Assembly (NCBI GenBank): GCA_031291795.1
Contig: JARLIJ010000094.1
Span: forward strand, 1-40,035
DNA from: Acetobacteraceae bacterium
GTDB taxonomy: Bacteria > Pseudomonadota > Alphaproteobacteria > Acetobacterales > Acetobacteraceae
Length of the DNA stretch: 40,035 nucleotides
Reading direction: 5' to 3'
Part shown: positions 4,215 through 26,923 of the stretch, piece after piece
How the letters are laid out: the number at the start of each line of letters is the position of its first letter
How positions within the stretch are numbered: position 1 is the first letter of the stretch
Notes under the pieces: generated by a model
Told to the model about the DNA's origin: nothing
Database searches by the model: none
The model's input: the letters and a program-made list of their open reading frames with translations, nothing else
Translations under genes and position numbers: made by a program

Positions 4215-5432
4215 TCAGCGCTTCCGCCGCCGATAGCGGATCGCCCCCAGGCCGGCCAGAGCGATTCCGAAGGTCAGCAGGCCACCCGGTTCCGGCGTCG
4301 CGACGGTGCCGCCCGGCAAACCTCCGGTAAACGGATAGGAGTGCAACTCGCCGCTGCCACTGAAACTGTTGGCGACCACAGTCCCGTCGATCGGGCTGCT
4401 ATTGCTCACCGCCGCCAGCGGGGCCAGGACCGTGCCGCCGAACTCATTGCTGAACGTGATGCCGGTGGCATTGACGAAATTCCACAGCACCTCGTCGGCA
4501 TAGCTGGTCGGGTTGGAGAAGTTCACGCTGTTCAGGAAACTATAGGCGCAGGTCACGTCGACACAGCTGTCGACATTGACGTTGATGATGACCGAAGTGG
4601 CCCCGTCGAGGTTGATCGTCACCGTCGAGTTCGCCATGAACAGCGACGTATTGATGTCGAACACGGCAATGCCCGAGGCGTTCGGCGCCGCATTGAAGGT
4701 GATGCTGCTGCCCGAGACGCGTACGGTGCTGTTGGCGGACTGGCCGGCGAGTTGTGTCGACAATGCGGTCAGGGGCGCTTTGAATGTGCTGTTGAAATCC
4801 GGCAATGCAGGCGGGGTTATGCCGGCACTGGCTGCCTGTGTCGCGGTTGCGCCGTTGTTCATGTTCAGGCTGCCCGTGACGCTGCCCGTATAGATCAGGC
4901 CGGTACCGCCGTTCACGGACACATTGCCGGTATTGCCGTTGATCCGAACGGCCCCGCCGCTGTTCAGCGTGATCTGGCCGGTATTGTTCCCATTGATCGA
5001 GGCGGCCACGGCGCCGCCATTGCCGTTGATCGTGCCACTGTTTCCGGCGCCGACAAAAACGCTGCCCCCCGCGTTCAGATTGACGCTGGCGCTATTCGAG
5101 CCGAGAATCGTTAAACTACCGTTGATACTAAACGAATTGGACCCAGTCTCATTTCCGTAGACCATCAGGCCGGAAAAAGACGATGCAGCGGCGCTGCCGG
5201 GCGCCTGGTTGAAGCCCGCGCCCGCCGACACGTTGCCGCCCACCACCGCCCGACCTTGCACGTCGGAGGAGTTGCTGAAATTTCCAAACACTACAGCATT
5301 GAATTGGCTAAGGATTTGCGCGGACGACAGCGGCGTGGCGCCGGCGGTTCCTACGCTGAGAATCAGTCCAAACGCTGCGATCAATAATGTGATCGGACGT
5401 CGTGGCCTTGGCAAAATCATCTCGCGGGTCAT
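4215..5432 (-). CDS. Choice-of-anchor A family PEP-CTERM surface protein
   Basis: A 405-residue secreted protein. The signal peptide covers about residues 1-38 (ILPRPRRPITLLIAAFGLIL then SVGTAGATP). The mature part is very rich in Gly, Asn and Ser and begins with LSSAQILSQFNAVVFGNFSN, typical of the choice-of-anchor A domain; it also has the conserved-looking GTVLAPLAAVSNSSPIDGTV. The last ~27 residues form a sorting tag: TPEPGG, a hydrophobic helix and RYRRRKR, which is the PEP-CTERM signal processed by exosortase in exopolysaccharide-producing bacteria. No exosortase gene is in the window. The ATG at 5432 has GGTGAG about 7 bases upstream; an upstream TTG is less likely. The gene body and upstream region are less GC-rich than neighbouring genes. 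Probably part of the cell surface or biofilm matrix. Confidence 0.88.
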   Translation of the reverse strand: MTREMILPRPRRPITLLIAAFGLILSVGTAGATPLSSAQILSQFNAVVFGNFSNSSDVQGRAVVGGNVSAGAGFNQAPGSAAASSFSGLMVYGNETGSNSFSINGSLTILGSNSASVNLNAGGSVFVGAGNSGTINGNGGAVAASINGNNTGQITLNSGGAVRINGNTGNVSVNGGTGLIYTGSVTGSLNMNNGATATQAASAGITPPALPDFNSTFKAPLTALSTQLAGQSANSTVRVSGSSITFNAAPNASGIAVFDINTSLFMANSTVTINLDGATSVIINVNVDSCVDVTCAYSFLNSVNFSNPTSYADEVLWNFVNATGITFSNEFGGTVLAPLAAVSNSSPIDGTVVANSFSGSGELHSYPFTGGLPGGTVATPEPGGLLTFGIALAGLGAIRYRRRKR

Positions 5433-5643
5433 CGGATACTCACCCGAACCCAATTCCGACCAGGGTTCGATGGTGGGATATATAGGGGATATGAATTAAA
5501 AGTTAAACCGTTTTCTATAAAATAGATCTACGATACCTGTCTGTATGCGATTTGGGCTCGAAGTATGCAGAGGCATGGCTTGACGGTTCACGCGGCTCCG
5601 CTATCTGGCGCTGTCGCCGCACCGGCGACCGTCAGTGGATCGC
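5433..5643. promoter_or_regulatory. AT-rich divergent promoter region
   Basis: Between the PEP-CTERM gene (leftward) and the GT2 gene (rightward). Bases about 5475-5545 are strikingly AT-rich for this genome (ATGAATTAAAAGTTAAACCG, TTTTCTATAAAATAGATC), so promoters for one or both genes are likely here. No exact -35/-10 pair was assigned. Confidence 0.4.
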
Positions 5644-6774
5644 ATGAACGAATCACCTTCCCCCACCGCCCCGCGGCGCTCGTCCGGTGCTCCGACCCTG
5701 ACCGTCGTGGTGCCGTGCTATAATGAGCAACCGAACGTCGCGCCGATGATCGCCAAGCTCGACAGCGCCCTGGGCGGGATCGACTGGGAGGTGATCTATG
5801 TCGATGACGACAGTCCGGACGGCACCGCCGACGAGGTGCGCCGGGTGGCGCGCCATGACCCGCGGGTCCGCTGCCTTCGGCGGGTCGGGCGGCGTGGCCT
5901 TGCCTCTGCGGTAATCGAGGGCGCGCTGGCGTCATCAGCCGAGTACGTCGCAGTGATCGATGGCGACCTGCAGCATGACGAGACCCGCCTACCGACCATG
6001 CTGGCCGCGTTGCGTAGCGGCCAATACGACCTCGCCATCGGCTCGCGCCATGTGGAAGGTGGCGACGCCGGCGGCCTTGCCAACCGCTGGCGGCACCTGA
6101 TCTCCAACGGCGGCATACGGCTCGCCCAGTACTTCCTACCGGTGAAGCTGACCGATCCGATGAGCGGCTATTTCATGCTGCGCCGGCCGTTGTTCGAGCA
6201 ACTCGCCCACAGCCTGACCGGCCAGGGCTTCAAGATCCTGCTTGACCTCGTTTTGAGCGCGTCGGCGCCGCTGCGGGTGGTGGAGATCCCAGTGCAGTTC
6301 CGCGAACGCCTCGCCGGAGAGAGCAAACTGGACGCTCTGGTGATGGCGCAATTCGGCGGCCTGCTGCTGGACAAGGTGTTCGGCGGCCTGCTGCCGCTGC
6401 GCTTCATCTCGTTTGCGATCGTGGGATGCCTCGGCGTCCTGGTGCATCTCGCCGTGCTGGCCACGCTGCGCGAGAGCACGGCGATGACCTTCGAGGTCGA
6501 GCAGGCGATCGCCACGGTGGTTGCCATGGCGTTCAACTTCGAGCTCAATAACGCCATCACCTACCGCGACCAGCGGCTACGCGGGCCTCGGCTATGGCGT
6601 GGCCTACTGCTGTTCATGGTGGTGTGCGGGGTCGGCGCGATCGCCAATATCGGCATCGCCCAGGCGTTGTACGAGCAGCACGCGGCGTGGACGGTTGCCG
6701 GGGCGATCGGTGCGGTGATCGGAGTGGTATGGAACTACGCGGTCTCAGCCACGCTGGTCTGGCGCGCACGGTGA
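5644..6774 (+). CDS. Polyprenyl-phosphate sugar synthase: GT2 fused to GtrA-like membrane domain
   Basis: A 376-residue enzyme. Residues ~18-245 form a GT2 domain of the dolichol-phosphate mannose synthase type: VVVPCYNEQPNV, the YVDDDSPDGT acidic loop, DGDLQHDE with metal-binding D106-x-D108, and DPMSGYFMLRR. Residues ~255-376 form about four membrane helices of the GtrA type (VGCLGVLVHLAVLATLR, FNFELNNAITYRDQR, WNYAVSATLVWR). It would load a sugar from a nucleotide donor onto polyprenyl phosphate and anchor or flip it at the inner membrane. The next gene is a GT39 transferase that uses such lipid-linked sugars, so the pair probably modifies an envelope lipid, glycan or protein. A GTG 9 bases upstream is an alternative start. 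Confidence 0.9.
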   Translation: MNESPSPTAPRRSSGAPTLTVVVPCYNEQPNVAPMIAKLDSALGGIDWEVIYVDDDSPDGTADEVRRVARHDPRVRCLRRVGRRGLASAVIEGALASSAEYVAVIDGDLQHDETRLPTMLAALRSGQYDLAIGSRHVEGGDAGGLANRWRHLISNGGIRLAQYFLPVKLTDPMSGYFMLRRPLFEQLAHSLTGQGFKILLDLVLSASAPLRVVEIPVQFRERLAGESKLDALVMAQFGGLLLDKVFGGLLPLRFISFAIVGCLGVLVHLAVLATLRESTAMTFEVEQAIATVVAMAFNFELNNAITYRDQRLRGPRLWRGLLLFMVVCGVGAIANIGIAQALYEQHAAWTVAGAIGAVIGVVWNYAVSATLVWRAR

Positions 6775-6813
6775 GACCCGATCCGCGAGCGCTTGCGTGG
6801 TGAGGCTTCGCCG

Positions 6814-8259
6814 GTGACACGATGGGCCGCCGTCCTGGCGGCTCTGACGCTGGCGCGCCTGGCCGTCGCGGCGGCGATCCCGCTTGCGCCGGACGAGACC
6901 TATTACTGGGTATGGTCGCGCGCTCTCGCGGCCGGCTACCTCGACCACCCACCGATGGTGGCCTTGTGGATCCGCGCCGGAACAGCCCTGGCCGGCGAAG
7001 GCGCCCTGGGGATTCGCCTGTTGGGACCGCTATCCGCCGCGCTGGGATCAGTCCTACTGGCCGATGCAGCGGAGCGACTGCTGCCGGGGCGACGGGCGGG
7101 CATCATGGCGGCGGCGCTGCTGAACGCGACGCTGCTGTTTGGCGTCGGCACGGTGATCATGACGCCGGACACCCCGCTGCTGTTCTTCTGGACTGCCGCG
7201 CTTTGGGCCGCGGTGCATGCTGGGCGGTCCGGTGGGATCGCGTGGTGGAGCGTCGTGGGGCTGTGTGCCGGGCTCGCGCTGGCAAGCAAATACACCGCCG
7301 TGTTTTTGTGGTTCGGGCTCGCCCTATGGATATTGGTCGTCCCGTCGCTGCGCCGACAGTTGCGCAAGCCGGGGCCGTGGATCGGCGGCTTGGTCGCGGT
7401 CGCGGCGTTCCTGCCGGTTGTCGTATGGAACGCGGACCATGACTGGGCCAGCTTCCTGCGCCAGGGCGGACGTGCCGCCGCCTGGCGACCGACCCGTGCG
7501 ATCGGCTTCCTCGGCGAGTTGGTCGGTGCGCAGTTCGGGTTGGCCACGCCATTGGTGTTCCTACTCTGCGTGGTGGGAGGGGTGGCGGCAGCCCGCTCGG
7601 CCTGGCGACAACGCAATCCGGCCGCGACGCTGCTCGCTGCGCTGACCGTGCCGGCCACGTTGGTGTTCCTGCAGCACGCGATCGGCGACCGGGTGCAAGG
7701 CAACTGGCCGGCGATCCTGTATCCGGCGGCCTGCATCGCCGCGGCAGGGCTGGTCGGCCCCGCGTGGGAACGGTTGCAACGCCCGGCCGTCGTGCTTGGC
7801 TTAGCCATTACGGCGGCGATTTACGTCCAGGCTGCGGCCGGCGTATTACCGGTGCCGCCGAAGCGCGACCCGATCGCCTTGCAGCTCCGTGGCTGGACCG
7901 AACTGGCGGCCCAGGTGGAGGCGGTGCGGCAGCAGACAGGCGCGCGGTTCGTCGCCGCGGACCAGTATGCCCTGGCTGGCGAGCTGGCCCACGCGCTCCC
8001 CGCCGACGTGTCGGTGATCGGGGTCGAGGCTCGTTGGGCGCTGACCGCTCTGCCCCCAGCCGCGCCGGGCGATGCATCCGGGCTGCTGGTGCGCAACGCC
8101 CGCCGCGATGACGCAATTGATCCGACCCTATGGCGCGACGTCACGCCGGTGGGCGAGGCTGCCAGAGGCAGCATCGACACGTTCCGGCTTTACCGGGTCA
8201 CCGCGGCGCCAGGCTTGCGCGACGCGGTCTGGTTGCCTCGCCCCGATATGACGCGCTGA
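6814..8259 (+). CDS. GT39/ArnT-like lipid-linked sugar transferase
   Basis: A 481-residue polytopic membrane protein of the GT-C fold. The first periplasmic loop has D27-E28 in PDETYYWVWS and the YLDHPPMVAL motif at ~43-52, both characteristic of ArnT/PMT-type enzymes that move a sugar from polyprenyl phosphate to an acceptor. About ten hydrophobic helices follow to ~residue 370, with a soluble C-terminal domain after them. The GTG at 6814 is chosen because GGTGAGG lies 7 bases upstream; a TTG at 6793 is possible. It starts 39 bp after the GT2-GtrA gene and is probably cotranscribed: GT2 makes the lipid-linked donor and this enzyme uses it. The acceptor (lipid A, hopanoid, protein or glycan) cannot be told from the sequence. 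Confidence 0.88.
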   Translation: MTRWAAVLAALTLARLAVAAAIPLAPDETYYWVWSRALAAGYLDHPPMVALWIRAGTALAGEGALGIRLLGPLSAALGSVLLADAAERLLPGRRAGIMAAALLNATLLFGVGTVIMTPDTPLLFFWTAALWAAVHAGRSGGIAWWSVVGLCAGLALASKYTAVFLWFGLALWILVVPSLRRQLRKPGPWIGGLVAVAAFLPVVVWNADHDWASFLRQGGRAAAWRPTRAIGFLGELVGAQFGLATPLVFLLCVVGGVAAARSAWRQRNPAATLLAALTVPATLVFLQHAIGDRVQGNWPAILYPAACIAAAGLVGPAWERLQRPAVVLGLAITAAIYVQAAAGVLPVPPKRDPIALQLRGWTELAAQVEAVRQQTGARFVAADQYALAGELAHALPADVSVIGVEARWALTALPPAAPGDASGLLVRNARRDDAIDPTLWRDVTPVGEAARGSIDTFRLYRVTAAPGLRDAVWLPRPDMTR

Positions 8260-8311: not shown

Positions 8312-8791
8312 TCAGAGCTTGATGTCGGCCTCGACCGTGACCGAGCGACGTGTCTCGGCCAGGGCGTCGCGCAGGGCCGCGAGGGCTGCCAGTCCGCAGG
8401 CGGTATCCTGCTCGCCGTTGCCGCCGCTCAGACCGACACCGCCGACAACCGCACCGTCCACGACGATCGGGAAGCCGCCGACGAAGACCGCGAACCGACC
8501 GTCGAAGCTCCATTGTATACCGAATGCCTCGTTGCCCGGCAGGGCCGGACCGTTCGGTGGCCGATTGAACAGATGCGTCGACCGTTTGTGGCCGGCGGCC
8601 GTGAAAGCCTTGTTCCAAGCGATCTGCGGGCCGGTGATCCGCGCGCCGTCCATCCGCTCCAGGACCATCGGGTAGCCGCCCTCATCGACGATGCACACCG
8701 TCTCGAGCACGCCGATCTCCGCCGCCGCGGCGAGGGCAGCGTCTGCCATTAGACGTGCTTCCCGCCGTTCCAGTCGCAGTGCCGTTTTCAT
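8312..8791 (-). CDS. GlcG/HbpS-family (DUF336) protein
   Basis: A 159-residue protein matching the GlcG/HbpS family in length and motifs: CIVDEGGYPMVLERMDGA (~33-50), KAFTAAG (~61-67), and the conserved GGFPIVVDGAVVGGVGLSGG run (~105-124) followed by EQD. Family members include the haem-binding HbpS and proteins encoded near oxidation pathways; many have no known activity. No signal peptide, so cytoplasmic. It is the last gene of a five-gene leftward operon, starting 11 bp after the stop of the ferredoxin gene. The ATG at 8791 is chosen by domain fit; the upstream open frame runs back into the ferredoxin gene out of frame. Whether it binds haem here is unknown; in this operon it could be a cofactor chaperone or sensor. 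Confidence 0.9.
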   Translation of the reverse strand: MKTALRLERREARLMADAALAAAAEIGVLETVCIVDEGGYPMVLERMDGARITGPQIAWNKAFTAAGHKRSTHLFNRPPNGPALPGNEAFGIQWSFDGRFAVFVGGFPIVVDGAVVGGVGLSGGNGEQDTACGLAALAALRDALAETRRSVTVEADIKL

Positions 8792-8802
8792 GGCGTTACA
8801 TC

Positions 8803-9144
8803 TCACTGTGGGGGCTGGCGCGGCGTCCAGGACACGCTCACATCGCCGCTGATGAACGTCTGGCAGGCCATGCGGTAGCCGTTTGCGAGGTCGGCCTCCG
8901 TCAGATGCCGGCGCTCCTTGGGCTTTACGGCGTCGGTGCGCTCGATTCCGGTCTCGATGCGGCACTTGCACGTGCCACACAGACCGCCGCCGCACTTGAA
9001 CGGAATGCCGCCCTGCTCGCGCAGCGACACACGCAGCAGGTTGCTGTTCGCCGGCGCCGTGACCGTCTTCCCGCCGCTAGTGACAAAGGTCACCGCAATC
9101 GTGGCGACCGGCGGCGCACATGCCGGCTGGGAGGCATCGCTCAT
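8803..9144 (-). CDS. [2Fe-2S] ferredoxin, distal copy
   Basis: A 113-residue ferredoxin. Cluster ligands are C51-x4-C56-x2-C59 (KCGGGLCGTCKC) and C94 (YRMACQTF), the plant/adrenodoxin-like arrangement for a [2Fe-2S] cluster; C61 is an extra cysteine in the loop. The region before the fourth ligand has VKPKERRHLTEADLANGYR, as in ferredoxin domains of oxygenase reductases. No other domain is present, so it is a stand-alone soluble electron carrier. The start overlaps the stop of the 98-residue gene by 4 bp (ATGA), so translation is coupled. It probably passes electrons to the operon's diiron protein; the reductase that feeds it is not in the window. Confidence 0.92.
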   Translation of the reverse strand: MSDASQPACAPPVATIAVTFVTSGGKTVTAPANSNLLRVSLREQGGIPFKCGGGLCGTCKCRIETGIERTDAVKPKERRHLTEADLANGYRMACQTFISGDVSVSWTPRQPPQ

Positions 9145-9437
9145 GGCTGTTTCTTCAACGCAATATCCATGCTGCCGAACGTGACCATGGCATGCAGTTC
9201 GGCACGCGCCTGTTCCAGCGTTGCGAACTGCGGCAGGAATTTCGGCGGCACCTCATTAACGAGCGCGGGCGGCATTTCATCGACGATCCGGATCTTCGCG
9301 TTGCCGGTCTGTTCGGCGATGACGAATTGCGCTTTCTTCTGGCCGTAGAACAGATAGTCGTATGCCTCGCACGCGGTCAGCCCATCGCCAAGTTCGGTAC
9401 GATATTGCCCCGGACGGCTGGTCAGGATCACGAACAC
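9141..9437 (-). CDS. Conserved-looking small protein of unknown function between two ferredoxin genes
   Basis: A 98-residue soluble protein that I do not recognise. It begins MFVILTSRPGQYRTELGDGL and has an aromatic core (EAYDYLFYGQKKAQFVIAE), a Pro-rich middle (DEMPPALVNEVPPKFLPQF) and a C-terminal helix (LEQARAELHAM). It has one cysteine (C23), no signal peptide and no membrane segment. The GTG start at 9437 is well supported: AAGGAGG lies 5 bases upstream, and the codon directly abuts the stop of the proximal ferredoxin gene. Its own stop overlaps the next ferredoxin start. This zero-gap packing implies a function tied to the two ferredoxins and the diiron protein, for example an adaptor or small subunit; that is inference. 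Confidence 0.85.
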   Translation of the reverse strand: MFVILTSRPGQYRTELGDGLTACEAYDYLFYGQKKAQFVIAEQTGNAKIRIVDEMPPALVNEVPPKFLPQFATLEQARAELHAMVTFGSMDIALKKQP

Positions 9438-9773
9438 CTACGCCTCCTTCGCAGCGGCCGTGGGAGCAGGCGGCGCAATGGCGCGGTCCTGCACCAGCTC
9501 GATGTCGTCTTTGATCCACAGCTGGCATACGAGCCGGTAGCCATCGTCGATCGCACCGCCGAGCCGCTTGGTTTCCTTCCAGTTGGGTGGGGGAAGGTGT
9601 TCGGCACCGGTGATGATGCGGCACGCGCATTTGCCGCATTTCCCCATACCGCACCCGTATGCCAGATACGGATAGGGGAAACGTCGGATGCCCGCAAGGA
9701 CAACGAGGTTGGTATCGTCTGCAACCTCTTCGCCGTACACCTCACCGGCCTTGTGGAAGACTACTTGCGGCAT
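9438..9773 (-). CDS. [2Fe-2S] ferredoxin, proximal copy
   Basis: A 111-residue ferredoxin distinct from the distal copy. Ligands are C41-x4-C46-x2-C49 (GCGMGKCGKCAC) and C83 (YRLVCQLW), with an extra C51. A Pro/Ala-rich tail (PPAPTAAAKEA) follows the domain. The N-terminus (VVFHKAGEVYGEEVADDTNL) gives the beta-grasp strands expected of the fold. It starts 15 bp after the diiron gene stop and abuts the unknown 98-residue gene with no gap. Two different single-domain ferredoxins in one operon suggest either a two-step electron relay or separate partners. Likely role is electron donation to the diiron enzyme; inferred from context. Confidence 0.92.
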   Translation of the reverse strand: MPQVVFHKAGEVYGEEVADDTNLVVLAGIRRFPYPYLAYGCGMGKCGKCACRIITGAEHLPPPNWKETKRLGGAIDDGYRLVCQLWIKDDIELVQDRAIAPPAPTAAAKEA

Positions 9774-9788
9774 TGCCGGTCCTGCGCT

Positions 9789-10520
9789 TCAGGCAGCGCG
9801 ATCGAGCTCCTGCAACGGCAGGTCGGCCGCGACATAATCGTGGTACAGTGCCGTGGTGTAGAGCAGGCGCATCTGCGCCCCGATCTCGCAGATCTTCAGG
9901 CAGCGCTGCTGCAGGTCGGGCGTATCCGCATGTGCCAGGACGATCTGGTAGCCACGCTCGCCGTGGATCTCGTCGGAGACAATGTGCAGGTCGAAGAACT
10001 CGACTTCCTCATCGGTGAACTTATACGTCTCGCGCAATGTCGGGGTCTGCCGGCGATAGATCGAGGGCACCTGTGATTCCAGCCCGACGACCAGGGCGGC
10101 GATCGCGACGATCGGATCCTCGCGCATCGCCACGGCATAGCACCAACTTTGCAGGCCGCGCGTGGTGGGCGACATGTTGTCCGGGTCCTTCACGCGTGCT
10201 GCGGTGGTGCCGCAGGCCTCGGCGAAGCGGATGAGCAGGTCGGTATGACGGTCGCCACCGATTTCCTCCTCATACATGTTGCTGAGCATGAAATCCTTGG
10301 CTTCCATGAAGCGCTCCGGCAACCTGGCATAGACATAGGCTAGGTAGTTCGCGAATGGACCGACGTAGTGGTAGTGATTTTCCGCCCAACGCGCGAGATG
10401 ATTACGGCCTAATTTTCCTTCTGCCCAAGCGATACTGAACGGAGACTTGTTCGCGCTTTTTCCTTTGATTGCATTCTCCAACGCGGTCCGAAACGTTACT
10501 GGATCCATCAGATCTGGCAT
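9789..10520 (-). CDS. Haem-oxygenase-like diiron protein (PqqC/CADD/TenA-related, iron-containing redox enzyme family)
   Basis: A 243-residue, mostly helical protein. Candidate metal ligands fit the haem-oxygenase-like diiron fold: E47 (WAENHYHYVGPF), E85-x6-H92 (EEEIGGDRH), E148 (VVGLESQVPSIY) and H179-x3-D183-x2-H186 (DLHIVSDEIHGERG). Known relatives include oxidases that split C-C or C-N bonds or make p-aminobenzoate, and cofactor-free PqqC; the acidic/His set here favours a metal-dependent member. ATG at 10520 is chosen because GGAGG lies 5 bases upstream. It is the first gene of a five-gene operon that encodes two ferredoxins, consistent with a need for electrons to activate oxygen. The substrate is unknown. 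A TTGTATACTG element lies about 46 bp upstream. Confidence 0.88.
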   Translation of the reverse strand: MPDLMDPVTFRTALENAIKGKSANKSPFSIAWAEGKLGRNHLARWAENHYHYVGPFANYLAYVYARLPERFMEAKDFMLSNMYEEEIGGDRHTDLLIRFAEACGTTAARVKDPDNMSPTTRGLQSWCYAVAMREDPIVAIAALVVGLESQVPSIYRRQTPTLRETYKFTDEEVEFFDLHIVSDEIHGERGYQIVLAHADTPDLQQRCLKICEIGAQMRLLYTTALYHDYVAADLPLQELDRAA

Positions 10521-10565
10521 GCGGGCCTCCTGTTCGACCGAAATTGAGAGCACCAATTCGGGATT

Positions 10566-10575
10566 CAGTATACAA
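10566..10575 (-). promoter_or_regulatory. Candidate GntR operator or -10 element upstream of the diiron operon
   Basis: Read toward the operon, the sequence is TTGTATACTG, 46 bp before the diiron start codon, with a TTGACA hexamer just upstream (10591-10586 on the minus strand). The same decamer lies ahead of gntR and a close copy lies ahead of serC. A GTATAC-centred palindrome suits a dimeric FadR-type GntR protein; TATACT could also serve as a -10 box, so the two readings overlap. Confidence 0.5.
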
Positions 10576-10618
10576 TTATCCACGATGTCAAGCAGAAACC
10601 ACCGCACGCCCCAGCCGA

Positions 10619-11323
10619 TCAGTCGACCGAGACGGGCACGTCACCGCTGCGCGCACGCAGCGAACCGGCGTTGATGACATGCCGATAGGCCAGCAAGGAC
10701 GCCAGTTCGGCATCGCCGGCGATCACCGAACGCAGGATATCAGCATGTTCGGCCCAAGAGATGCGGGCGAACTCGAGCCCGACGCGGCGAAACAGGGGCG
10801 CGGTCCGGTCACGCATGGTCCGCATCAGGTCGGCAAGAACGCGGTTGTGCCCGGCCTGTGCCAGATGAGTGTGGAAGGCATCGTTGAGCCGGGACAGCTC
10901 CTCGGTGCGGCCAACCGCGATCGCGCCGGAGCCTTCCGCAAGGATAGCCTCCAGCTGCCGCAGCACGGCCGGATCGCGGCGCCGGGCAGCCAGGCGGGCA
11001 TTGGCGGCCTCCAGCGTAGCCCGCACCTCCAACACTTCCTCCGCCTCCTGCTCGGACAGTGAAGCCACAACAGCACCGCGCCGGGCGGTCGTCTCGATCA
11101 GACCCTCGGAGGTCAACGTGCGGATCGCCTCGCGGATCGGATTGCGCGAGACGCCGAACTCCTCGGCCAGCCGATCCTCGACCAGCCGGTCTCCCGGCTT
11201 GAAATGGCCCGACAGGATGGCGGCGCGAATCTCGTCGGCAACCTTGTCACGCAACGGCGCATGCTGCGCACCGAGACTGCGGGCAACAGCTGGAACGGCC
11301 GGGGGGTCGGCAGGAGCGGACAC
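10619..11323 (-). CDS. GntR/FCD (FadR-type) transcriptional regulator
   Basis: A 234-residue regulator. The winged helix-turn-helix is at about residues 24-90 (PLRDKVADEIRAAILSGHFK, then EEFGVSRNPIREAIRTLTSE, GLIETTARRGAVV). The C-terminal FCD ligand domain spans about 95-222, with the acidic/His positions typical of metal-containing FCD folds (DAFHTHLAQAGHN). GTG at 11323 is used; GGAGA lies 9 bases upstream. It lies 98 bp ahead of the diiron operon, on the same strand, with matching TTGTATACTG elements 43-46 bp upstream of both starts, which suggests autoregulation and control of the operon. FCD regulators usually sense small organic acids or amino acids of the pathway they control. The proximity to serC-serA might mean a shared signal. 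Confidence 0.92.
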   Translation of the reverse strand: MSAPADPPAVPAVARSLGAQHAPLRDKVADEIRAAILSGHFKPGDRLVEDRLAEEFGVSRNPIREAIRTLTSEGLIETTARRGAVVASLSEQEAEEVLEVRATLEAANARLAARRRDPAVLRQLEAILAEGSGAIAVGRTEELSRLNDAFHTHLAQAGHNRVLADLMRTMRDRTAPLFRRVGLEFARISWAEHADILRSVIAGDAELASLLAYRHVINAGSLRARSGDVPVSVD

Positions 11324-11365: not shown

Positions 11366-11375
11366 CAGTATACAA
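11366..11375 (-). promoter_or_regulatory. Candidate GntR operator or -10 element upstream of gntR
   Basis: TTGTATACTG read toward gntR, 43 bp before its start codon, identical to the decamer ahead of the diiron operon. Consistent with autoregulation by the GntR protein; TATACT may also be the -10 box. Confidence 0.5.
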
Positions 11376-11504: not shown

Positions 11505-11514
11505 TTGTATACAG
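11505..11514 (+). promoter_or_regulatory. Candidate GntR operator or -10 element upstream of serC
   Basis: TTGTATACAG read toward serC, about 206 bp before its start codon. It differs at one position from the two decamers on the other strand. If it is a promoter element or operator, the serC transcript has a leader of about 200 nt. Confidence 0.42.
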
Positions 11515-11720: not shown

Positions 11721-12905
11721 ATGGCATTCGCCACGACACCGGATATCCGTCCGGCCAATCCTAACTTCTCCTCCGGCCCCTGCGCCAAGCGCCCCGGCTA
11801 CACCGTGGATGCGCTTTCCGGCGCGCTCCTCGGCCGCAGCCACCGAGCGGCCGGCCCCAAGGCACGTATCGCCGAAGTGATCGAGCGGTCGCGCGCGATC
11901 CTGGGCCTGCCCCCGGACTGGCGCCTCGGCGTGGTGCCCGGTTCCGACACCGGCGCCGTCGAACTGTCGCTCTGGTCCCTCCTCGGCGCCCGCGGCGTCG
12001 ATATCCTGAGCTTCGAGAGCTTCGGCGAAGGCTGGGCGACCGACGCCGCCAAACACCTGAAGCTGACGGACATGCGAGTCCTGCGCGCACCGTACGGGCA
12101 GTTGCCAGACCTCGCCGCGGTCGATCCGGCGCGCGACCTGGTGTTCACCTGGAACGGCACGACCTCCGGCGTGCGGGTGCCGAACGCCGACTGGATCGCC
12201 GCCGACCGCCAGGGCCTGGCGATCTGCGACGCGACCTCCGCGGCGTTTGCCATGAAGCTCGACTGGGCGAAGCTGGATGTCGTCACGTGGTCCTGGCAGA
12301 AGGTGCTGGGCGGTGAGGCCGCCCATGGCATGCTGGCCCTGTCGCCGCGCGCCGTGGAACGGCTGGAGACCTACACCCCGCCTTGGCCGTTGCCGAAGCT
12401 GTTCCGCCTCACCTCCAAGGGCAAGCTGTCCGAGGGCGTGTTCAAGGGCGAGACCGTCAACACCCCGTCGATGCTTTGCGTCGAGGATGCGGTCGACGGC
12501 CTGCGCTGGGCCGAGAGCATGGGCGGGCTGGACGGCCTGATCGCACGGTCGGACGCCAATCTGGCGGCAGTCGCGGATTGGGTTGCCCGGACGCCGTGGG
12601 TCGACTTCCTGGCCGTGGTCCCCGCCACCCGCTCCTGCACCTCGATCTGCCTGAAGATCGTGGCACCGTGGTTCACGTCGCTGCCGGCGGACGGCCAGGC
12701 CAAGGCGGCGAAGCAGATCGCGTCACTTCTGGACAAGCAGGACGTGGCCTACGATATCGCGTCCTATCGCGACGCACCGCCGGGTCTACGTATCTGGGGC
12801 GGTGCCACGGTCGAGACGGCCGACATCGCCGCGTTGCTGCCCTGGCTCGACTGGGCCCATGCCCAGGTCGAAGCCGCGTTCGCGCCCGCTCACGCCGCAG
12901 AATAG
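11721..12905 (+). CDS. serC: Phosphoserine aminotransferase (alphaproteobacterial type)
   Basis: A 394-residue PLP enzyme converting 3-phosphohydroxypyruvate and glutamate to O-phosphoserine and 2-oxoglutarate, the second step of serine biosynthesis; the family also serves PLP synthesis. The opening [18 protein letters not shown] is diagnostic for this SerC subgroup. The PLP-binding lysine is K194 in [15 protein letters not shown], and [16 protein letters not shown] is the cofactor phosphate region. The start has a strong AAGGGAGAG site about 5 bases upstream. serA follows after 143 bp on the same strand, so they probably form one operon, with control from the structured leader upstream. Confidence 0.96.
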
Positions 12906-13000: not shown

Positions 13001-13048
13001 CGGGTGGGTTTGGGAGCCGAAGCCCGCCTATACCGAAAGATCTTCCAA

Positions 13049-14635
13049 ATGCCCAAAGTCCTGATCAGCGACAAACTCTCCCCCGCCGCCGTAGACATCT
13101 TCCGCCGGCGCGGCATCGACGTGGACCTTAAGCCCGGCCTGTCTCCTGCCGATCTTCGCGCCATCATCGGCGCCTATGATGGGCTTGCCGTCCGCTCCGC
13201 CACCAAGGTGACACGCGAGTTGCTGGATGCCGCGACCAACCTCAAAGTGGTCGGCCGCGCCGGCATCGGCGTCGACAACGTCGATCTACGCTCCGCCACC
13301 ACGCGCGGCGTCGTGGTGATGAACACGCCTTACGGCAACACCATCACCACCGCTGAACACGCCATCGCCATGATGTTCGCGCTTGCCCGCCAGATCCCGG
13401 AAGCCTCTGCCTCCACCAAGGCCGGCAAGTGGGAGAAGAACCGCTTCATGGGCGTGGAATTGACCGCCAAGACGCTGGGCCTGATCGGCTGCGGCAACAT
13501 CGGCTCGATCGTGGCCGATCGCGCGGTCGGGCTGAAAATGAAGGTCATCGCCTACGACCCCTATTTGTCCGAAAAGAAGGCGATGGACCTCGGCGTCGAG
13601 AAGGTCGAGTTCGAGGACCTGCTGGCGCGCGCCGACATCATCACGCTGCACACGCCGCTGACCGATGCGACCCGCAATATCCTCTCCCGCGAGAGCCTGG
13701 CGAAGACCAAGAAGGGCGTGCGCATCATCAATTGCGCCCGCGGCGGCCTGGTCGATGAGGCAGCTTTGGCCGACGCTATCAGGTCCGGCCTCGTCGCCGG
13801 CGCCGCATTGGATGTGTTCGAGACCGAACCCGCGATCGACAGCCCGCTGTTCGGACTGGAGAACGTTGTCTGTACCCCCCATCTCGGCGCCGCAACGGCC
13901 GAGGCGCAGGAGAACGTCGCGCTGCAGGTGGCCGAACAGATGAGCGACTTCCTGCTGACCGGCGCTGTTACGAACGCGATCAACATGCCCTCGGTCACCG
14001 CGGAGGATGCGCCGCGGCTGAAGCCCTACATGGCGCTATGCCGGCACCTCGGTGCATTCGCCGGCCAGCTCACCCAGGCGCGGGAAGGCGTGATCCGCCG
14101 CGTCGCGATCGAGTTCGAAGGCCAGGTAGCAGGACTGAACACCCGTCCTCTGACCGCGGCAGTGCTCGCCGGGCTGATGTCGCCACTGATGGAAGGCATC
14201 AACATGGTGAATGCCGGTGTCGCCGCGCGCGACCACGGCATCGACGTAGCCGAGACGGTGCATGACCGCCCGTCCGAGTACCTGACCCTGGTCCGGGTGA
14301 CGGTAGAAACCGACACGCTCAGCCGTTCGGTCGCCGGCACGCTGTTCGCCGGGTCCCGCCCGCGCATCGTCGAGATCAAGGGCATCAAGGTCGAGGCCGA
14401 TTTCGCACCCCATATGCTGTACGTCACCAATCAGGACAAACCAGGCTTCATCGGCCGCTTCGGCGCCACCCTCTCCGGCGCCGGGATCAACATCGCGACC
14501 TTCCATCTCGGGCGGGCGACGCAAGGCGGCGACGCGATCTGCCTGGTCTCTGTGGACGAACCGGTGGCCGAGGATGTGCTGGCGATGGTCCGCACGCTTC
14601 CCTTGGTCGTGCAGGCCACGTCCCTGGCATTCTGA
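13049..14635 (+). CDS. serA: D-3-phosphoglycerate dehydrogenase with C-terminal ACT domain
   Basis: A 528-residue NAD-dependent enzyme oxidising 3-phosphoglycerate to 3-phosphohydroxypyruvate, the first step of serine synthesis. The Rossmann motif is GLIGCGNIGSIVADRA (~144-159). The catalytic set is R231 (NCARGG), E260 (DVFETEP) and H278 (TPHLGAAT). After the catalytic domain come an allosteric substrate-binding domain and a C-terminal ACT domain (LYVTNQDKPGFIGRFGATLS onward), where serine feedback is usually sensed; the length matches this long form. ATG at 13049 is chosen because the protein MPKVLISDKLSPAA starts there. It lies downstream of serC, separated by a palindromic repeat. Confidence 0.97.
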   Translation: MPKVLISDKLSPAAVDIFRRRGIDVDLKPGLSPADLRAIIGAYDGLAVRSATKVTRELLDAATNLKVVGRAGIGVDNVDLRSATTRGVVVMNTPYGNTITTAEHAIAMMFALARQIPEASASTKAGKWEKNRFMGVELTAKTLGLIGCGNIGSIVADRAVGLKMKVIAYDPYLSEKKAMDLGVEKVEFEDLLARADIITLHTPLTDATRNILSRESLAKTKKGVRIINCARGGLVDEAALADAIRSGLVAGAALDVFETEPAIDSPLFGLENVVCTPHLGAATAEAQENVALQVAEQMSDFLLTGAVTNAINMPSVTAEDAPRLKPYMALCRHLGAFAGQLTQAREGVIRRVAIEFEGQVAGLNTRPLTAAVLAGLMSPLMEGINMVNAGVAARDHGIDVAETVHDRPSEYLTLVRVTVETDTLSRSVAGTLFAGSRPRIVEIKGIKVEADFAPHMLYVTNQDKPGFIGRFGATLSGAGINIATFHLGRATQGGDAICLVSVDEPVAEDVLAMVRTLPLVVQATSLAF

Positions 14636-18846: not shown

Positions 18847-19812
18847 CTACACGAACTTCGCCAGCCTCACCGCCGTATGTCCACGGCTTGGGCGCAGGCT
18901 CGGCATCACCAGCAAGCAGTCATCATGCGGCGTGCGGACCTCCGTATGGCCGTCGAGCGCGATCAGTGTGTTCCGCTGCGGGATCACATCCCCACCCCGA
19001 TATGCCTGCACGAACGCAAAATTGGCAGTCGCGGCGGTCACCGCCGTTGTCACGATCGCCACGCGCTGCGGCCTCGGAGTCGTAGGCGGCGGCAAGGGCG
19101 CATCCGGCGCTATCACGTCCAGGTGTCGTAACAGCCCCACGGCACTCGCCAGCGCGGTGTCGACAGTTGCAGTTTCCCAGTGCTGGCCCGCCTCCACCAG
19201 GCTCGCGGCGAACGGCGTCCCAGGATCGGAAAAGCGCGTGTAATCGATGATTCGGCGGCCGTTGGCGTGCCCGTGGTCAGCCACCACCAGTCCCGGCGTG
19301 CCCAAACCGAGCGCGAGGGCACGGCCTTTCGCTGTGGCACCGCTGAGGACGAGGGGATCGGACGGCCACAACATCGAATGCAGGTCCAGCAGCACGTCCA
19401 CCGTGTCGAGCAGCGGCCGGATCTCGCGCGCGCGGTCCAGCTCCCGCGAGTGGCGCGGGCCGTCCAGCACTGATTCGTCCCACACCCGGTTGATGTCTTC
19501 ATCCAGGAAGCGGGAGGCGGTTGGGCGCTTCGGGTCGAACCGCTCGAACGCGGTCAGGTTGACGAAGCCGAAGGTCAGCGTGCCACGGCGGGGCGTCAGC
19601 CCCGCCCGCAACAGCCGGTCGAGCACGATCGCGCCGGCCAACTCGTTACCGTGGGAGAGCGCCAGCAGCGCCACATGCGGTCCGGCTGAGGCCCCCCGGC
19701 GACTGGTGAAGCCCGCGATACCGGTATTGCCAACCAGCCAGGCCGCAATATCCGGCGGCACAAGCTGCACCTCGAACTTCGGCACCGGTAGCTGAAGGAT
19801 CGGTTCTACCAT
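18847..19812 (-). CDS. Succinylglutamate desuccinylase/aspartoacylase-family (M14-like) zinc deacylase
   Basis: A 321-residue enzyme of the AstE/AspA group, cytoplasmic zinc hydrolases that remove an acyl group from an N-acyl amino acid. Zinc ligands are H54-x2-E57 (ALSHGNELAGAIVL) and H145 (LLDLHSM). The DEDINRVW stretch (104-111) matches the Asn-Arg substrate-carboxylate site of the family. The C-terminal domain is beta-rich (RGGDVIPQRNTLIALDGHTE). It starts 11 bp after the stop of the ArgE-type gene and is cotranscribed with it; both deacylate amino acids, and the divergent operon encodes a peptide-type importer. The exact acyl group is unknown. Confidence 0.9.
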   Translation of the reverse strand: MVEPILQLPVPKFEVQLVPPDIAAWLVGNTGIAGFTSRRGASAGPHVALLALSHGNELAGAIVLDRLLRAGLTPRRGTLTFGFVNLTAFERFDPKRPTASRFLDEDINRVWDESVLDGPRHSRELDRAREIRPLLDTVDVLLDLHSMLWPSDPLVLSGATAKGRALALGLGTPGLVVADHGHANGRRIIDYTRFSDPGTPFAASLVEAGQHWETATVDTALASAVGLLRHLDVIAPDAPLPPPTTPRPQRVAIVTTAVTAATANFAFVQAYRGGDVIPQRNTLIALDGHTEVRTPHDDCLLVMPSLRPSRGHTAVRLAKFV

Positions 19813-19823
19813 TTGCGGCGGCG

Positions 19824-20993
19824 TCAGGCGGTCAGACGGTCGGCTAGACGGCGGATGAACGCATCACACGCATCCAGCTCGCTCTGCGCGATCCACTCAT
19901 CGGGCTGGTGCGCCTGCGCGATATGGCCGGGTCCGCAGACGATCGCCGGGATCGCCGCATGCTCGTAATAGCCGCCCTCGGTGCCGTAGCTGACCTTGCC
20001 GGTCGCATTGGAGCCGGTGAGCTGCTTCACCAGGGCGGTCAGGTCATGATCAGGCGACAGCGACAGGCCGGGTAGCTCGATCTGCACGTCGAAGTCGAAC
20101 CCAGTGCCGGGGTGCACCGCGTGCATCGCCGGTTCGATATGCTCCGCCACGAACGCCTGCAGGCGCGCCATGTGGGCACGCGGCTCGTCGCCGGGAATGT
20201 TGCGCCACTCCATGACGAACTCGGCATGTTCGGGGATGATGTTCAGGATCGTGCCGCCCCGGACCGTGCCCACGTGGACGGTGGTATGCGGTGGATTGAA
20301 GCCGTCCTCGAACGGCCCCTCCCGGGTGAGGCGGCGGGCTTCGGCGGCAATCCAGGCGAGCGCCTCGCCGGCGCACTGCACGGCGTTCACCCCGCGGGCC
20401 GGGTTCGATGAATGCCCCGGCAGGCCGCGCACCGCGACGCGCAGGTTAAGCTTGCCCTTGTGCGCCAGCACCGGCTGCATACCGGTCGGTTCGCCCACAA
20501 TGCACAGCGCCGGGCGCAGGCCCGACTCCGCCATATCGACGATCAGCCGTTGCGCGCCATAGCAGCCGACCTCCTCATCATAGGTAATGAACAGGTGCAC
20601 CGGCCTGGTCAGCGTCCGGGCGCGCAGGTCGGGCACCGCGGCGAGGCAGGCCGCGACGAAGCCCTTCATGTCGCAGGCGCCCCGCCCGGTCAGACGGCCA
20701 TTTGCCCGGCGCAACATGAACGGGTCGCCGCTCCAGGCCTGGCCGTCCACCGGCACGGTGTCGACGTGGCCCGACAGCGCGATGCCGCCGCTTTCCTGCG
20801 GGCCGATGATGGCGTGGACGTTGGCTTTCTGGCCGGTGGCGTCGGTGCTGACCCGATACGGCACACCGTTGGCGTCCAGCCAGTCGCGCACGAATCCGAT
20901 CAGCGGCAGGTTCGAATTCCGGCTCGTCGTATCGAACGACACCAAGCGTTCGAGCATCTCGGCGGTGGAGGGGCAGGCAGCAGGTCCGGTCAT
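19824..20993 (-). CDS. argE: Acetylornithine deacetylase-type M20 metallopeptidase
   Basis: A 389-residue M20 enzyme with motifs in order: SGHVDTVPVDGQAW (zinc His and Asp), GRGACDMKGFVAACLA (bridging Asp), TYDEEVGCYGA (catalytic Glu pair), GEPTG, and the dimerisation-domain PGHSSNPARG. A C-terminal GPGHIAQAHQPDEW supplies the last zinc His. The full pattern, including CDMKGF and GEPTGM, fits ArgE, which hydrolyses N-acetylornithine to ornithine; related enzymes act on other N-acyl amino acids. The start ATG 20993 is the only good candidate. It is first in a two-gene leftward operon with the AstE/AspA-like enzyme and divergent from the ABC transporter operon (155-bp gap), so a catabolic role on imported N-acyl amino acids is as likely as arginine synthesis. 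Confidence 0.9.
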   Translation of the reverse strand: MTGPAACPSTAEMLERLVSFDTTSRNSNLPLIGFVRDWLDANGVPYRVSTDATGQKANVHAIIGPQESGGIALSGHVDTVPVDGQAWSGDPFMLRRANGRLTGRGACDMKGFVAACLAAVPDLRARTLTRPVHLFITYDEEVGCYGAQRLIVDMAESGLRPALCIVGEPTGMQPVLAHKGKLNLRVAVRGLPGHSSNPARGVNAVQCAGEALAWIAAEARRLTREGPFEDGFNPPHTTVHVGTVRGGTILNIIPEHAEFVMEWRNIPGDEPRAHMARLQAFVAEHIEPAMHAVHPGTGFDFDVQIELPGLSLSPDHDLTALVKQLTGSNATGKVSYGTEGGYYEHAAIPAIVCGPGHIAQAHQPDEWIAQSELDACDAFIRRLADRLTA

Positions 20994-21148
20994 GTCCGCA
21001 GTCTATACGGGTGGGCGCTGCCGGCAACCGCAGGTGGCGGTCAACGGCACTTGACTGGTGATAAAGGCCCGGCAGCCACCGCAGATGCCTAGCGCGTGCA
21101 GCTCGTGCGCCGCTATAACGCGGATTCTGCGACCGGGGGATTTGCGCA
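20994..21148. promoter_or_regulatory. Divergent promoter region between argE and the ABC operon
   Basis: The 155-bp gap must hold both promoters. TATAAC at 21114-21119 is a possible -10 box for the rightward operon, 30 bp ahead of the ATG; no good -35 was found. Confidence 0.3.
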
Positions 21149-22729
21149 ATGACGGGTATATACCGGGCCTCGGCCCGGTTGGGCGCCGTGCTGGCCAGTC
21201 TCGTATGTGGCCCAGCCATGGCACAGACTTTGACCATCGCCTCTTCGGCGCCGGTGACCAGCATTGACCCGCACTATCACACGCTCTCGCCCAACGAGTC
21301 GTTCGACGGACAAATGTATGAGCGGCTGGTGGACCACGACGCCCACGGCAAGCTGATCCCCAGCCTGGCCGAAAGCTGGTCGCTGAAGGACGACACGACC
21401 TGGGAGTTCAAGCTGCGCCCCGGCGTGAAATTCCACGACGGATCGAACTTCACCGCCGAGGACGTGGCCTACACGATCGCGCGGGTGCCGCGGGTGAAGA
21501 ACAGCCCGGCTTCGTTCTCGATCTACACCCAGGCAGTGAAATCGGTGGAGGTCGTCGACCCGCAGACAATCCGCCTGCACACCGACGGGGTCTATCCGCT
21601 GCTACCGATCGATCTGTCGCAGGTGTTTATCATCCCGCATGGGCTCGGAGCCGATCCGACCACCGAGGACTTCAACGCCGGCAAGAATGCCATTGGCACC
21701 GGACCGTTCCGGTTCGTGTCCTACAAGCCGGGCGACCGGATCGAGTTGGACCGGTTCGACGGCTACTGGGGGCCGAAGCCGCAGTGGGAGCACGTCTCCT
21801 ACCGCATGCTCAGCAACGACGCCTCGCGCACCGCGGCCCTGCTGGCCGGCGATGTCGGGATCATCGAGTTCGTGCCGCCGACCGACCTGCCCAAGCTGCG
21901 CACGGACCCGCGCGTGACGCTGGCGGAGGTGATCAGCAACCGCTCGATCTTCCTCTGGCTGGACCACTCGCATGAGGGCCCGACACCCTACGTATTCGGC
22001 CCGAACGGCGAGACGCTGGCGAAGAATCCGCTGAAGGACCGCCGTGTGCGCCTGGCGCTGTCGCTGGCGATCAACCGCCAGGCGATCGTCGAGCGCGTGA
22101 TGGAGGGCGCCGCGATCCCGACCGGCCAGTACCTGCCCCCGGGTGCTGCCACCTACAACCCCGACATCAAGCCGCCACCCTATGACCCCGCGCGCGCCAA
22201 GGCCCTGCTGGCCGAGGCCGGGTACCCGAACGGCCTGCGCATCACGCTGCACGGCCCGAACGACCGCTATGTCAACGATGCCAAGATCATCCAGGCGGTC
22301 GGCCAGATGTGGCAGCGGATCGGCGTGCAAACGACCGTCGAGCCGTCGCCCTGGAGCGCCTTCGTCTCCCGCGCCGGGCGCCAGGAGCTGTCCGCCTTCC
22401 TGCTCGGCTGGGGTGTGTCAACCGGCGAGGGCATCAACCCGCTGCGGGCCCAGCTAGGCACGTGGGACGCGGCGCGCGGCATCGGGACAGCCAATCGCGG
22501 GCGCTACTCCAACCCGACGCTGGACGCGATGGTCGAGCAGGCGCTGCGCACGCTGGACGATGGCGCGCGCGACAAGCTCGTGCAGCAGGCGATGGCGCTC
22601 GCGATGGACGACGTGCCGGTGATCATGTTGCATTTGCAGAAGGCCATCTGGGCGACCCGCAAGGGCCTGGTCTACGAGGCGCGCACCGACGAGGAGACGC
22701 GCGCCGTGTCGGTCAAGGCGGTGCCGTGA
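21149..22729 (+). CDS. ABC transporter substrate-binding protein, peptide/Opp type (SBP_bac_5)
   Basis: A 526-residue periplasmic binding protein. The signal peptide MTGIYRASARLGAVLASLVC then GPAMA is cleaved after residue 25. The body shows the family landmarks: LAESWSLKDDTTWEFKLRPG, VKFHDGSNFTAEDVAYTI, GTGPFRFVSYKPGDRIEL, and LALSLAINRQAIVERVM. Such proteins bind di- or oligopeptides, or other solutes such as opines or glutathione, and deliver them to the permease pair encoded next. GGGGGA serves as ribosome site about 8 bases upstream. It heads a five-gene transporter set. Neighbouring deacylases suggest that the cargo is a peptide or acylated amino acid. Confidence 0.95.
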   Translation: MTGIYRASARLGAVLASLVCGPAMAQTLTIASSAPVTSIDPHYHTLSPNESFDGQMYERLVDHDAHGKLIPSLAESWSLKDDTTWEFKLRPGVKFHDGSNFTAEDVAYTIARVPRVKNSPASFSIYTQAVKSVEVVDPQTIRLHTDGVYPLLPIDLSQVFIIPHGLGADPTTEDFNAGKNAIGTGPFRFVSYKPGDRIELDRFDGYWGPKPQWEHVSYRMLSNDASRTAALLAGDVGIIEFVPPTDLPKLRTDPRVTLAEVISNRSIFLWLDHSHEGPTPYVFGPNGETLAKNPLKDRRVRLALSLAINRQAIVERVMEGAAIPTGQYLPPGAATYNPDIKPPPYDPARAKALLAEAGYPNGLRITLHGPNDRYVNDAKIIQAVGQMWQRIGVQTTVEPSPWSAFVSRAGRQELSAFLLGWGVSTGEGINPLRAQLGTWDAARGIGTANRGRYSNPTLDAMVEQALRTLDDGARDKLVQQAMALAMDDVPVIMLHLQKAIWATRKGLVYEARTDEETRAVSVKAVP

Positions 22730-22919
22730 ACGTCAATCCGATGCGGAAGGCGATGGGCTCCGCTCGTTGTCATCCTCGGGCTTGGCCTGAGGACCCGCGG
22801 CTTCGCCTTCCGTGGAACCGGAAAGCCGTGGGTGCCCGACCGAACACCGGGCATGACACCCAGTGCGCTGTCGCGGGCCCTCACGGGAAGTCGGCTCCCA
22901 TGGTTCGGTGCCCTGGGCG
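22730..22919. repeat. GC-rich palindromic spacer between binding protein and permease genes
   Basis: The 190-bp gap contains an inverted repeat TCCTCGGGCTTGGCCTGAGGA (part around 22772-22792) and the words GGTGCCCGACCGAACACC then GGGCATGAC near 22829-22858. These resemble the palindromic element in the serC-serA gap. In ABC operons, such hairpins between the binding protein and the permease genes often let the binding protein be made in excess. Confidence 0.5.
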
Positions 22920-25886: not shown

Positions 25887-25902
25887 GGATATCCGCATCG
25901 TC

Positions 25903-26907
<1,005 letters not shown>

Positions 26908-26923
26908 GCGCGGACCGCCGCGT

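Follow-up and report, generated by a model that had tools for sequence, protein, structure and literature searches.

Organization of the locus

Here we describe a compact group of genes located in a 40,035-nucleotide stretch of DNA from an Acetobacteraceae bacterium (contig JARLIJ010000094.1 of GenBank assembly GCA_031291795.1). The whole stretch, referred to as the window, lies on contig 293 of a 4.87 Mb assembly that is 68.8% complete. Six open reading frames (ORFs), all of them open, follow one another on the minus strand in the order gntR, HDO, fdx1, u98, fdx2, and glcG, as described in an initial annotation of this DNA. They encode a GntR/FCD regulator, a haem-oxygenase-like diiron oxidase/oxygenase (HDO), two [2Fe-2S] ferredoxins that enclose a protein of 98 residues (u98), and a DUF336/HbpS-like protein, GlcG (Table 1). 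The genes gntR and HDO are separated by 98 bp, and the gaps along the rest of the operon are 15, 0, -4, and 11 bp, exactly those first reported.

Table 1. Genes and operator-like sites of the HDO module, in coordinates of the window (aa, amino acids).
Feature	Position	Strand	Description	Family match or location
gntR	10619..11323	-	GntR/FCD regulator, 234 aa, proposed local repressor	PF00392 5.5e-21, PF07729 3e-24
HDO	9789..10520	-	Haem-oxygenase-like diiron oxidase/oxygenase, 243 aa from ATG	Pfam PF14518 Haem_oxygenas_2 8.5e-36
fdx1	9438..9773	-	[2Fe-2S] ferredoxin, 111 aa, CGMGKCGKC...C	Fer2 3.9e-07
u98	9141..9437	-	98 aa, GTG start; proposed redox-inactive oxygenase partner	No Pfam/NCBIfam family
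fdx2	8803..9144	-	Second [2Fe-2S] ferredoxin, 113 aa	Fer2 1.8e-13
glcG	8312..8791	-	DUF336/HbpS-like protein, 159 aa from ATG	PF03928 2.4e-32
Operator-like site TTGTATACTG	10566..10575	-		46-55 bp upstream of the HDO start codon
Operator-like site TTGTATACTG	11366..11375	-		43-52 bp upstream of gntR; overlaps the -10 hexamer TATACT of a promoter-like site
Third operator-like site TTGTATACAG	11505..11514	+		Between gntR and serC, 207 bp upstream of serC

Conservation and linkage of the gene set

An alignment of HDO alone was used to scan 84,980 species genomes, which yielded 457 relatives, and the best 80 of these (79 loci, L008 to L086) were retained. Adding three plasmid loci and the window gave the set of 83 loci on which the locus counts are based; it excludes L001, L002, L003 (own genome of the window), and L007 (Caballeronia SBC1, a near copy of SBC2). 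ORFs were called with our own scripts instead of a gene finder, and gene content was determined by tblastn, matches covering less than 35% of the query not being counted. An identity floor of 40% was applied to the accessory genes. The counts of the core genes are unchanged under this floor, and without it the accessory counts become 64 for aldehyde dehydrogenase (ALDH), 44 for the reductase, 24 for the amidase, and 36 for loci with a hydrolase.

In these loci, chosen on HDO alone, all five operon genes occur together in 77 of 83 cases, the window included. Counted one by one, HDO is present in 83 loci, fdx1 in 81, u98, fdx2, and glcG in 80 each, and gntR, whose place directly upstream of the operon had been noted before and which possesses both of its expected domains, in 78. 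Four of the six incomplete loci (L026, L044, L058, and L086) lie near an end of the DNA on the side of the missing genes; within the stretch examined, L069 lacks glcG and L077 lacks the trio fdx1-u98-fdx2. The trio is contiguous and on one strand in all 80 loci that have it. In 47 cases fdx1 comes next after HDO; in 9 the two are divergent, and in the rest other genes lie between them. The hosts are alpha- and betaproteobacteria, such as Bradyrhizobium, Acetobacteraceae, Aminobacter, Kaistia, Azospirillum, Cupriavidus, Paraburkholderia, Achromobacter, and Variovorax.

Searches that did not start from these loci gave the same picture. In a set of 398 genomes from the phylum, four, one of them the own genome, have a close HDO (E <1e-150), and u98 was found in the same four. 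A fifth genome has an HDO of 42% identity without u98, and the proteins behind three weak HDO matches (E 1e-11 to 1e-13) are CADD-like. When 72,556 plasmid records were searched with HDO, u98, and GlcG (E values up to 1e-5, 1e-3, and 1e-20, respectively), each protein matched the same six. A class-wide search with only the u98 of the window found one genome of 385, its own. The co-occurrence in plasmids and in the 398 genomes therefore indicates a module that is rare but coherent. The association of the five genes that the initial annotation had seen at a single locus is confirmed in alpha- and betaproteobacteria, far outside close relatives, and is stronger than first stated.

On average, pairs of sequences are 87% identical for HDO, 80% for GlcG, 69% for fdx2, 66% for fdx1, and 55% for both u98 and GntR; part of the lead of HDO follows from the selection itself, in which loci were ranked by their similarity to HDO. 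Five clusters (L019, L063, L067, L072, and L075) contain two HDO genes each, and the two products of L019 compare as identical. In locus L095, whose HDO (42% identical) is the closest homologue to have clearly diverged, the genes for HDO, GlcG (56%), and GntR (53%) are found together (L095:7419-11117); a Rieske-domain gene and an unassigned gene of 285 aa lie divergently beside them, in place of the ferredoxin trio.

The HDO protein

The AlphaFold2 (AF2) model of HDO (pLDDT 83.2, pTM 0.82; mean pLDDT 63-75 in the other four models) was compared as a whole fold by Foldseek, and its ligand set was judged through sequence alignment with CADD. The model matches CtCADD (8va9; TMt 0.87, root-mean-square deviation 2.5 Å, 23% identity) and PqqC (TMt 0.80), as well as UndA, BesC, and HrmI, with a probability of 1.00 for all five. 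The nearest solved sequences are also 4-aminobenzoate synthases (PDB, E 2.3e-18 to 1.8e-17).

Seven residues had been listed as candidate diiron ligands: E47, E85, H92, E148, H179, D183, and H186. All of them are identical in the 88 copies of HDO. Six, from E85 onward, align with the same spacing with the ligand positions of CADD, and these six are also kept in all four diverged relatives (L092 to L095). The position of E47 is occupied by Glu in three CADD-like proteins (L092 to L094) and by Lys in L095 and in CADD. The proposed set thus finds support for six residues (three His and three carboxylates); E47 is a possible extra Glu of the 3H/4C type. These observations support the assignment of HDO as a haem-oxygenase-fold protein with a complete candidate dimetal set of three His and three carboxylates.

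The resemblance to CADD does not extend to the residues specific to its reaction. CADD is described as using a sacrificial Tyr27 and the amine donor Lys152 (PMC11965152). These correspond to Ser29 and Gln158 in HDO, alike in 88 of 88 copies, and the Tyr and Lys are kept in all three CADD-like proteins; with this pair replaced, HDO does not appear to be a p-aminobenzoate (pABA) synthase. Its score against the CADD family model of NCBIfam (TIGR04305) is 92.4 bits, with a cut-off of 200. Two further identities were considered and rejected, namely PqqC (46.5 bits against an equivalog cut-off of 240) and the thiaminase II TenA (14 bits against 130).

Electron supply

The fdx1 pattern C-x4-C-x2-C...C is found in all 78 fdx1 orthologues, and the cysteine pattern of fdx2 in all 76 sequences used, one over-long protein of the 77 having been left out. 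The two ferredoxins of the window are 31% identical. In an alignment of 15 sequences, seven other fdx1 proteins are 59-66% identical to the fdx1 of the window and seven fdx2 proteins 26-32%, a split indicating that the pair is old and does not consist of recent copies.

The initial annotation had suggested a dedicated electron supply from the presence of two different ferredoxins. This suggestion is borne out by the wider set, in which both kinds flank u98 in all 80 loci having u98, and a BenC-like reductase gene (at least 40% identity) accompanies the module in 42 of the 83 loci. The reductase of Caballeronia has Fer2, FAD, and NAD domains; its best NCBIfam match is BenC (3.7e-64, below the model cut-off), and AntC and MmoC are matched as well, likewise below cut-off.

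The u98 protein

No family was found for u98 in the Pfam or NCBIfam scans, where one match at 0.08 falls below the cut-off. Its AF2 model (pLDDT 91.8, pTM 0.82) consists of seven strands and one helix. In the Foldseek comparison with the PDB, the best E value was 0.52 and the TM-score was at most 0.32 among the matches listed (50 of 464, E up to 10), so that Foldseek recognized no known fold. The 80 sequences have no conserved Cys or His, and 61 of them have no Cys at all, which makes a metal or cluster in u98 unlikely. The near-invariant residues are polar: T14 (80/80), E15 (79/80), Y28 (79/80), N61 (77/80), and R13 (73/80). The missing Cys and His, together with the place of the gene between both ferredoxins, suggest that u98 may be a redox-inactive partner.

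The GlcG protein

GlcG scores 112.1 bits against PF03928 (cut-off 25; obtained on 157 of the 159 residues), and its relatives in the PDB are OrfY, PduO-C, NahX, and EfgA. The haem ligand of PduO-C is reported to be His18 (PMC4923194); the corresponding residue in GlcG is Arg13, and Arg is found there in 75 of 80 sequences. In EfgA, K57, S114, and D121 have been implicated in formaldehyde binding (PMC8153426), and they correspond to K61 (80/80), S122 (79/80), and D129 (79/80) of GlcG, the missing row being a gap. Because the EfgA residues are kept and the haem histidine is lost, we tentatively prefer a putative aldehyde-handling role to a haem role.

The GntR regulator and the GTATAC sites

The palindrome GTATAC is found upstream of 80 of the 88 HDO genes, with 129 occurrences where 5.7 would be expected from the loci overall. 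When only intergenic regions are considered, it precedes HDO in 79 of 84 cases, the transporter described below in 62 of 65, TauE in 20 of 28, the amidase in 18 of 23, and gntR in 38 of 82. It is rarer upstream of the OCD family gene (9/29), fdx1 (10/70), ALDH (4/48), glcG (1/32), and other genes (18/335). These counts are not independent because divergent genes share several regions. Some of the 18 other regions precede likely pathway genes, such as an NMT1 binding protein (L009) and gamma-glutamyltransferase-like genes (L040 and L067), and further ones are shared with a core gene.

The window contains GTATAC five times (1.35 expected; none of 100 shuffles reaches five): once before HDO, twice before gntR, once inside glcG, and once at 32107. 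At gntR, one promoter-like site was found where 0.7 would be expected; taken by itself, the promoter is therefore weak. In the own genome there are five TTGTATACNG sites, four of them in the HDO module, one of these inside glcG; at the only one outside the window (G000:C357:78854) there is no clear target gene. The best NCBIfam match of the regulator is phnR_burk, with 121.5 bits against a cut-off of 271.5. The GTATAC sites and the site next to gntR fit a local repressor that would control itself, and their conservation upstream of HDO and its neighbors supports a dedicated GntR regulator.

Neighboring genes and the possible substrate

Besides the reductase, the accessory genes counted in the 83 loci are a transporter (64), ALDH (63), an OCD family gene (36), TauE (29), and an amidase (23). 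The transporter is a very hydrophobic protein of about 537 aa with GTATAC upstream (for example, L004:5947-7560). It is an unclassified family, the copy of Caballeronia having no match in Pfam, NCBIfam, or the PDB. Alternative importers at these loci are of the NMT1-type ABC, TRAP, tripartite, and MFS kinds. ALDH is best matched by models of alpha-ketoglutaric semialdehyde and 2,5-dioxovalerate dehydrogenases, below their cut-offs. Hydrolase genes of several folds also recur (amidase, gamma-glutamyltransferase-like, RutB-like, carboxylesterase, and alpha/beta hydrolase), and one locus has a saccharopine-dehydrogenase-like gene.

A search of the plasmids with the transporter returned the same six records and one Arthrobacter plasmid, p1 of Arthrobacter sulfonylureivorans (L087). 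The homologue on this plasmid is 37% identical and gave no clear answer about the family; it adjoins genes for an amidase, an ALDH, a Rid protein, an LLM flavin oxidoreductase, and an adenylate-forming enzyme. No HDO match was found in the stretch of L087 examined. This cluster is possibly a parallel pathway for a related substrate.

The neighbors fit the catabolism of a small carboxylate that contains nitrogen or is released from a nitrogen compound. In this respect, the pathway on a small carboxylate or amino acid first suggested for the operon is retained to the extent that the neighbors suit a carboxylate or nitrogen compound being imported and oxidized, and its link with serine metabolism is abandoned: serC or a full serA is present in none of the 82 other loci, where the nearest finding is a partial serA-family match at L023 (129 residues, 37%), and the two genes are neighbors of the module only in the window. 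Several more specific substrates (pyrrole and other N-heterocyclic carboxylates, pantothenate, theanine-like amides, and ureides) were considered; no neighbor is constant, and none of these ideas has enough support to be put forward.

In the window, the module is flanked by plus-strand genes: glycosyltransferase-type genes at 5635-8259 on one side and, on the other, serC (11721-12905) and serA (13004-14635). The ORF at 11721-12905 has no Pfam family in our scan, and we take it to be serC. Farther away, the minus-strand ORF at 4215-5453 encodes a protein with an ice-binding-like adhesive domain (PF20597), whose C-terminal stretch presumably resembles a PEP-CTERM sorting signal. At 18847-29374, peptide-type ABC transporter genes lie between M20 peptidases and an aspartoacylase-like protein, the permease and ATPase genes having been judged by eye.

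Discussion

We propose that the module encodes a GntR-controlled, ferredoxin-fed multi-component oxygenase on an HDO scaffold, probably catabolic and aldehyde-forming, with u98 as a partner protein; on balance we lean toward this reading, with considerable doubt. From the gene content, linkage, fold, ligand set, and conservation of the operator-like sites, we infer the following course. Electrons from NAD(P)H would pass through the BenC-like reductase to the [2Fe-2S] ferredoxins and from these to the diiron center of HDO, which would use O2 to oxidize an imported small carboxylate or nitrogen compound. As a cofactor-free partner, u98 would act on the complex of HDO and ferredoxin. The product would be a reactive aldehyde, which GlcG may bind or buffer before it is oxidized further by the aldehyde dehydrogenase found at most of the loci (63 of 83). 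From TTGTATAC sites, the GntR/FCD protein would keep both the operon and gntR itself repressed, and binding of the substrate or of an intermediate would lift this repression.

Several observations weigh against this proposal. The operon of the window has neither the reductase nor ALDH, and its own genome, at the completeness given above, has no orthologue of either (best matches of 25% and 39%, respectively). Any associated hydrolase (at least 40% identity) is found in 34 of the 83 loci, or 36 with weaker matches, so that these genes are a poor guide to a shared substrate. Residues of the EfgA type are widespread among DUF336 proteins, which makes them weak evidence for aldehyde binding. GTATAC was found upstream of none of the 21 reductase genes with their own intergenic region, nor upstream of the ABC ATPase (0/17), tripartite (0/19), and MFS2 (0/21) transporter genes. 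The reversed control of TTGTATACNG also occurs five times in the own genome, so that the number of these sites is ordinary and only their clustering, four of five in the module, is striking. The strict tandem GTATACNGTATAC was found in two of ten genomes, in the module in one (G747) and outside it in the other (G752), and the perfect tandem is therefore not general. Since the loci are the best 80 of the 457 relatives, the linkage itself has been demonstrated only down to an HDO identity of about 80%. Finally, L095 has no match to fdx1, u98, or fdx2 in the 19.5 kb examined, so linkage to the trio does not hold for every relative. Judging from this one locus, HDO, GlcG, and GntR may be the older core, and the electron module may be exchangeable.

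The alternative to be taken most seriously, although we regard it as unlikely, is that u98 is a small enzyme and that fdx1-u98-fdx2 is a separate ferredoxin-dependent unit acting on the product or the substrate of HDO. The trio is always contiguous, yet HDO is not always adjacent to it (47 joined and 9 divergent), L095 has an HDO of 42% identity and no match to the trio, and the near-invariant polar residues of u98 could belong to an active protein. On the other hand, u98 has no conserved Cys or His and no known family, and among the 398 genomes it occurs only alongside a close HDO, so it is not seen there as a free-standing enzyme.

We find it distinctly improbable that the operon is biosynthetic and makes a cofactor, signal, or chelator, like the HDOs of natural products, instead of degrading a nutrient. 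A 2026 review does treat HDOs in the context of making natural products and cofactors (PMC13108848), and the compact form of the module (the window, L009, and L020) has no match to ALDH or the reductase. The GTATAC-linked importer, the TauE-type permease, the amidase, and the ALDH of 63 loci speak for degradation, and no recurring synthetase or ligase is seen among the tabulated families, no search having been aimed at them.

A haem or iron system, in which a haem-oxygenase-like protein would work with a haem-binding HbpS-like one, is what the database names (Haem_oxygenas_2, 'haem degrading HbpS-like') would imply. It is very improbable given the complete non-haem dimetal set of HDO, which is nearest to CADD and PqqC, and the loss of the PduO-C His18 from GlcG (Arg in 75 of 80); nor is there a haem transporter among the neighbors inspected, although no search was aimed at one. 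A self-sacrificing pABA synthase of the CADD type is scarcely credible even with 4-aminobenzoate synthases as the closest PDB sequences, since Ser29 and Gln158 in place of Tyr27 and Lys152 in all 88 copies rule it out unless another Tyr/Lys pair serves, and the score of 92.4 bits stays under the family cut-off of 200.

Returning to the ferredoxin-fed oxygenase, its components can be compared with several known systems. CtCADD and NePabS are similar to HDO as its nearest solved sequence and fold, with the same spacing of the six ligands; HDO differs from them in having no sacrificial Tyr/Lys pair, and its operon adds the ferredoxins, u98, and GlcG. The HDO MboA has a dedicated reductase, MboB, which uses NAD(P)H, flavin, and Fe2S2, and the authors of that work present MboAB as perhaps the first dedicated pair of an HDO and a redox partner (PMC13185094). 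The pair MboA-MboB (an HDO acetylenase and its NADH/flavin/Fe2S2 reductase) is likewise an HDO with its own redox partner, of a reductase type that resembles the BenC-like gene, but it is biosynthetic (mangotoxin), and its six-gene cluster is described as having no separate ferredoxins, u98, or GlcG (PMC13185094). In the literature searched we found no precedent for two extra ferredoxins alongside an HDO.

The soluble methane and toluene monooxygenases combine a diiron oxygenase, a reductase or ferredoxin, and a small cofactor-free protein. The oxygenase of these bacterial multicomponent monooxygenases is ferritin-like, and the HDO studied here is haem-oxygenase-like according to Foldseek; u98 was compared with MmoB through the general PDB search alone. 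Many of the ferritin-like multicomponent monooxygenases need a protein effector, unlike the HDOs studied to date, as far as these are described in the 2026 review (PMC13108848). It is conceivable, though rather doubtful, that u98 is an obligatory redox-inactive effector of an HDO-scaffold multi-component oxygenase. Such a system would have arisen independently as the counterpart of ferritin-like monooxygenases gated by an effector, and its HDO would be devoted to catabolism.

GlcG belongs to the same DUF336 family as EfgA, PduO-C, NahX, GlcG, and HbpS; it keeps the K57/S114/D121 set of EfgA and is set apart from these relatives by its linkage to HDO and by having no PduO-type haem histidine. 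Among GntR regulators of the FCD type there are ones with TTGTATACAA-like operators, and GntR shares with them its domain make-up and the palindrome core; no characterized orthologue of it was found, the best NCBIfam match, phnR_burk, being below the cut-off. The gene set as a unit was not recognized in the open-licence literature searched, which was judged mostly by titles and the openings of abstracts, and the main text of a transposon-fitness paper that includes Cupriavidus (PMC12543098) is silent on the terms searched for the module. The HDO superfamily is thus known, and this gene composition was not met in that literature.

The 2026 review counts only about a dozen HDOs with validated function (PMC13108848), most of them described in biosynthesis; the module presented here is a tightly conserved HDO system of culturable soil bacteria such as Bradyrhizobium, Cupriavidus, and Paraburkholderia, among others. 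Because mutants of these bacteria can be screened for growth defects, the module makes an orphan reaction accessible to genetics. It also provides a test case for the gating of the HDO scaffold by a partner protein, as in methane monooxygenase, and the widespread and poorly understood DUF336/GlcG family would gain a linked partner enzyme.

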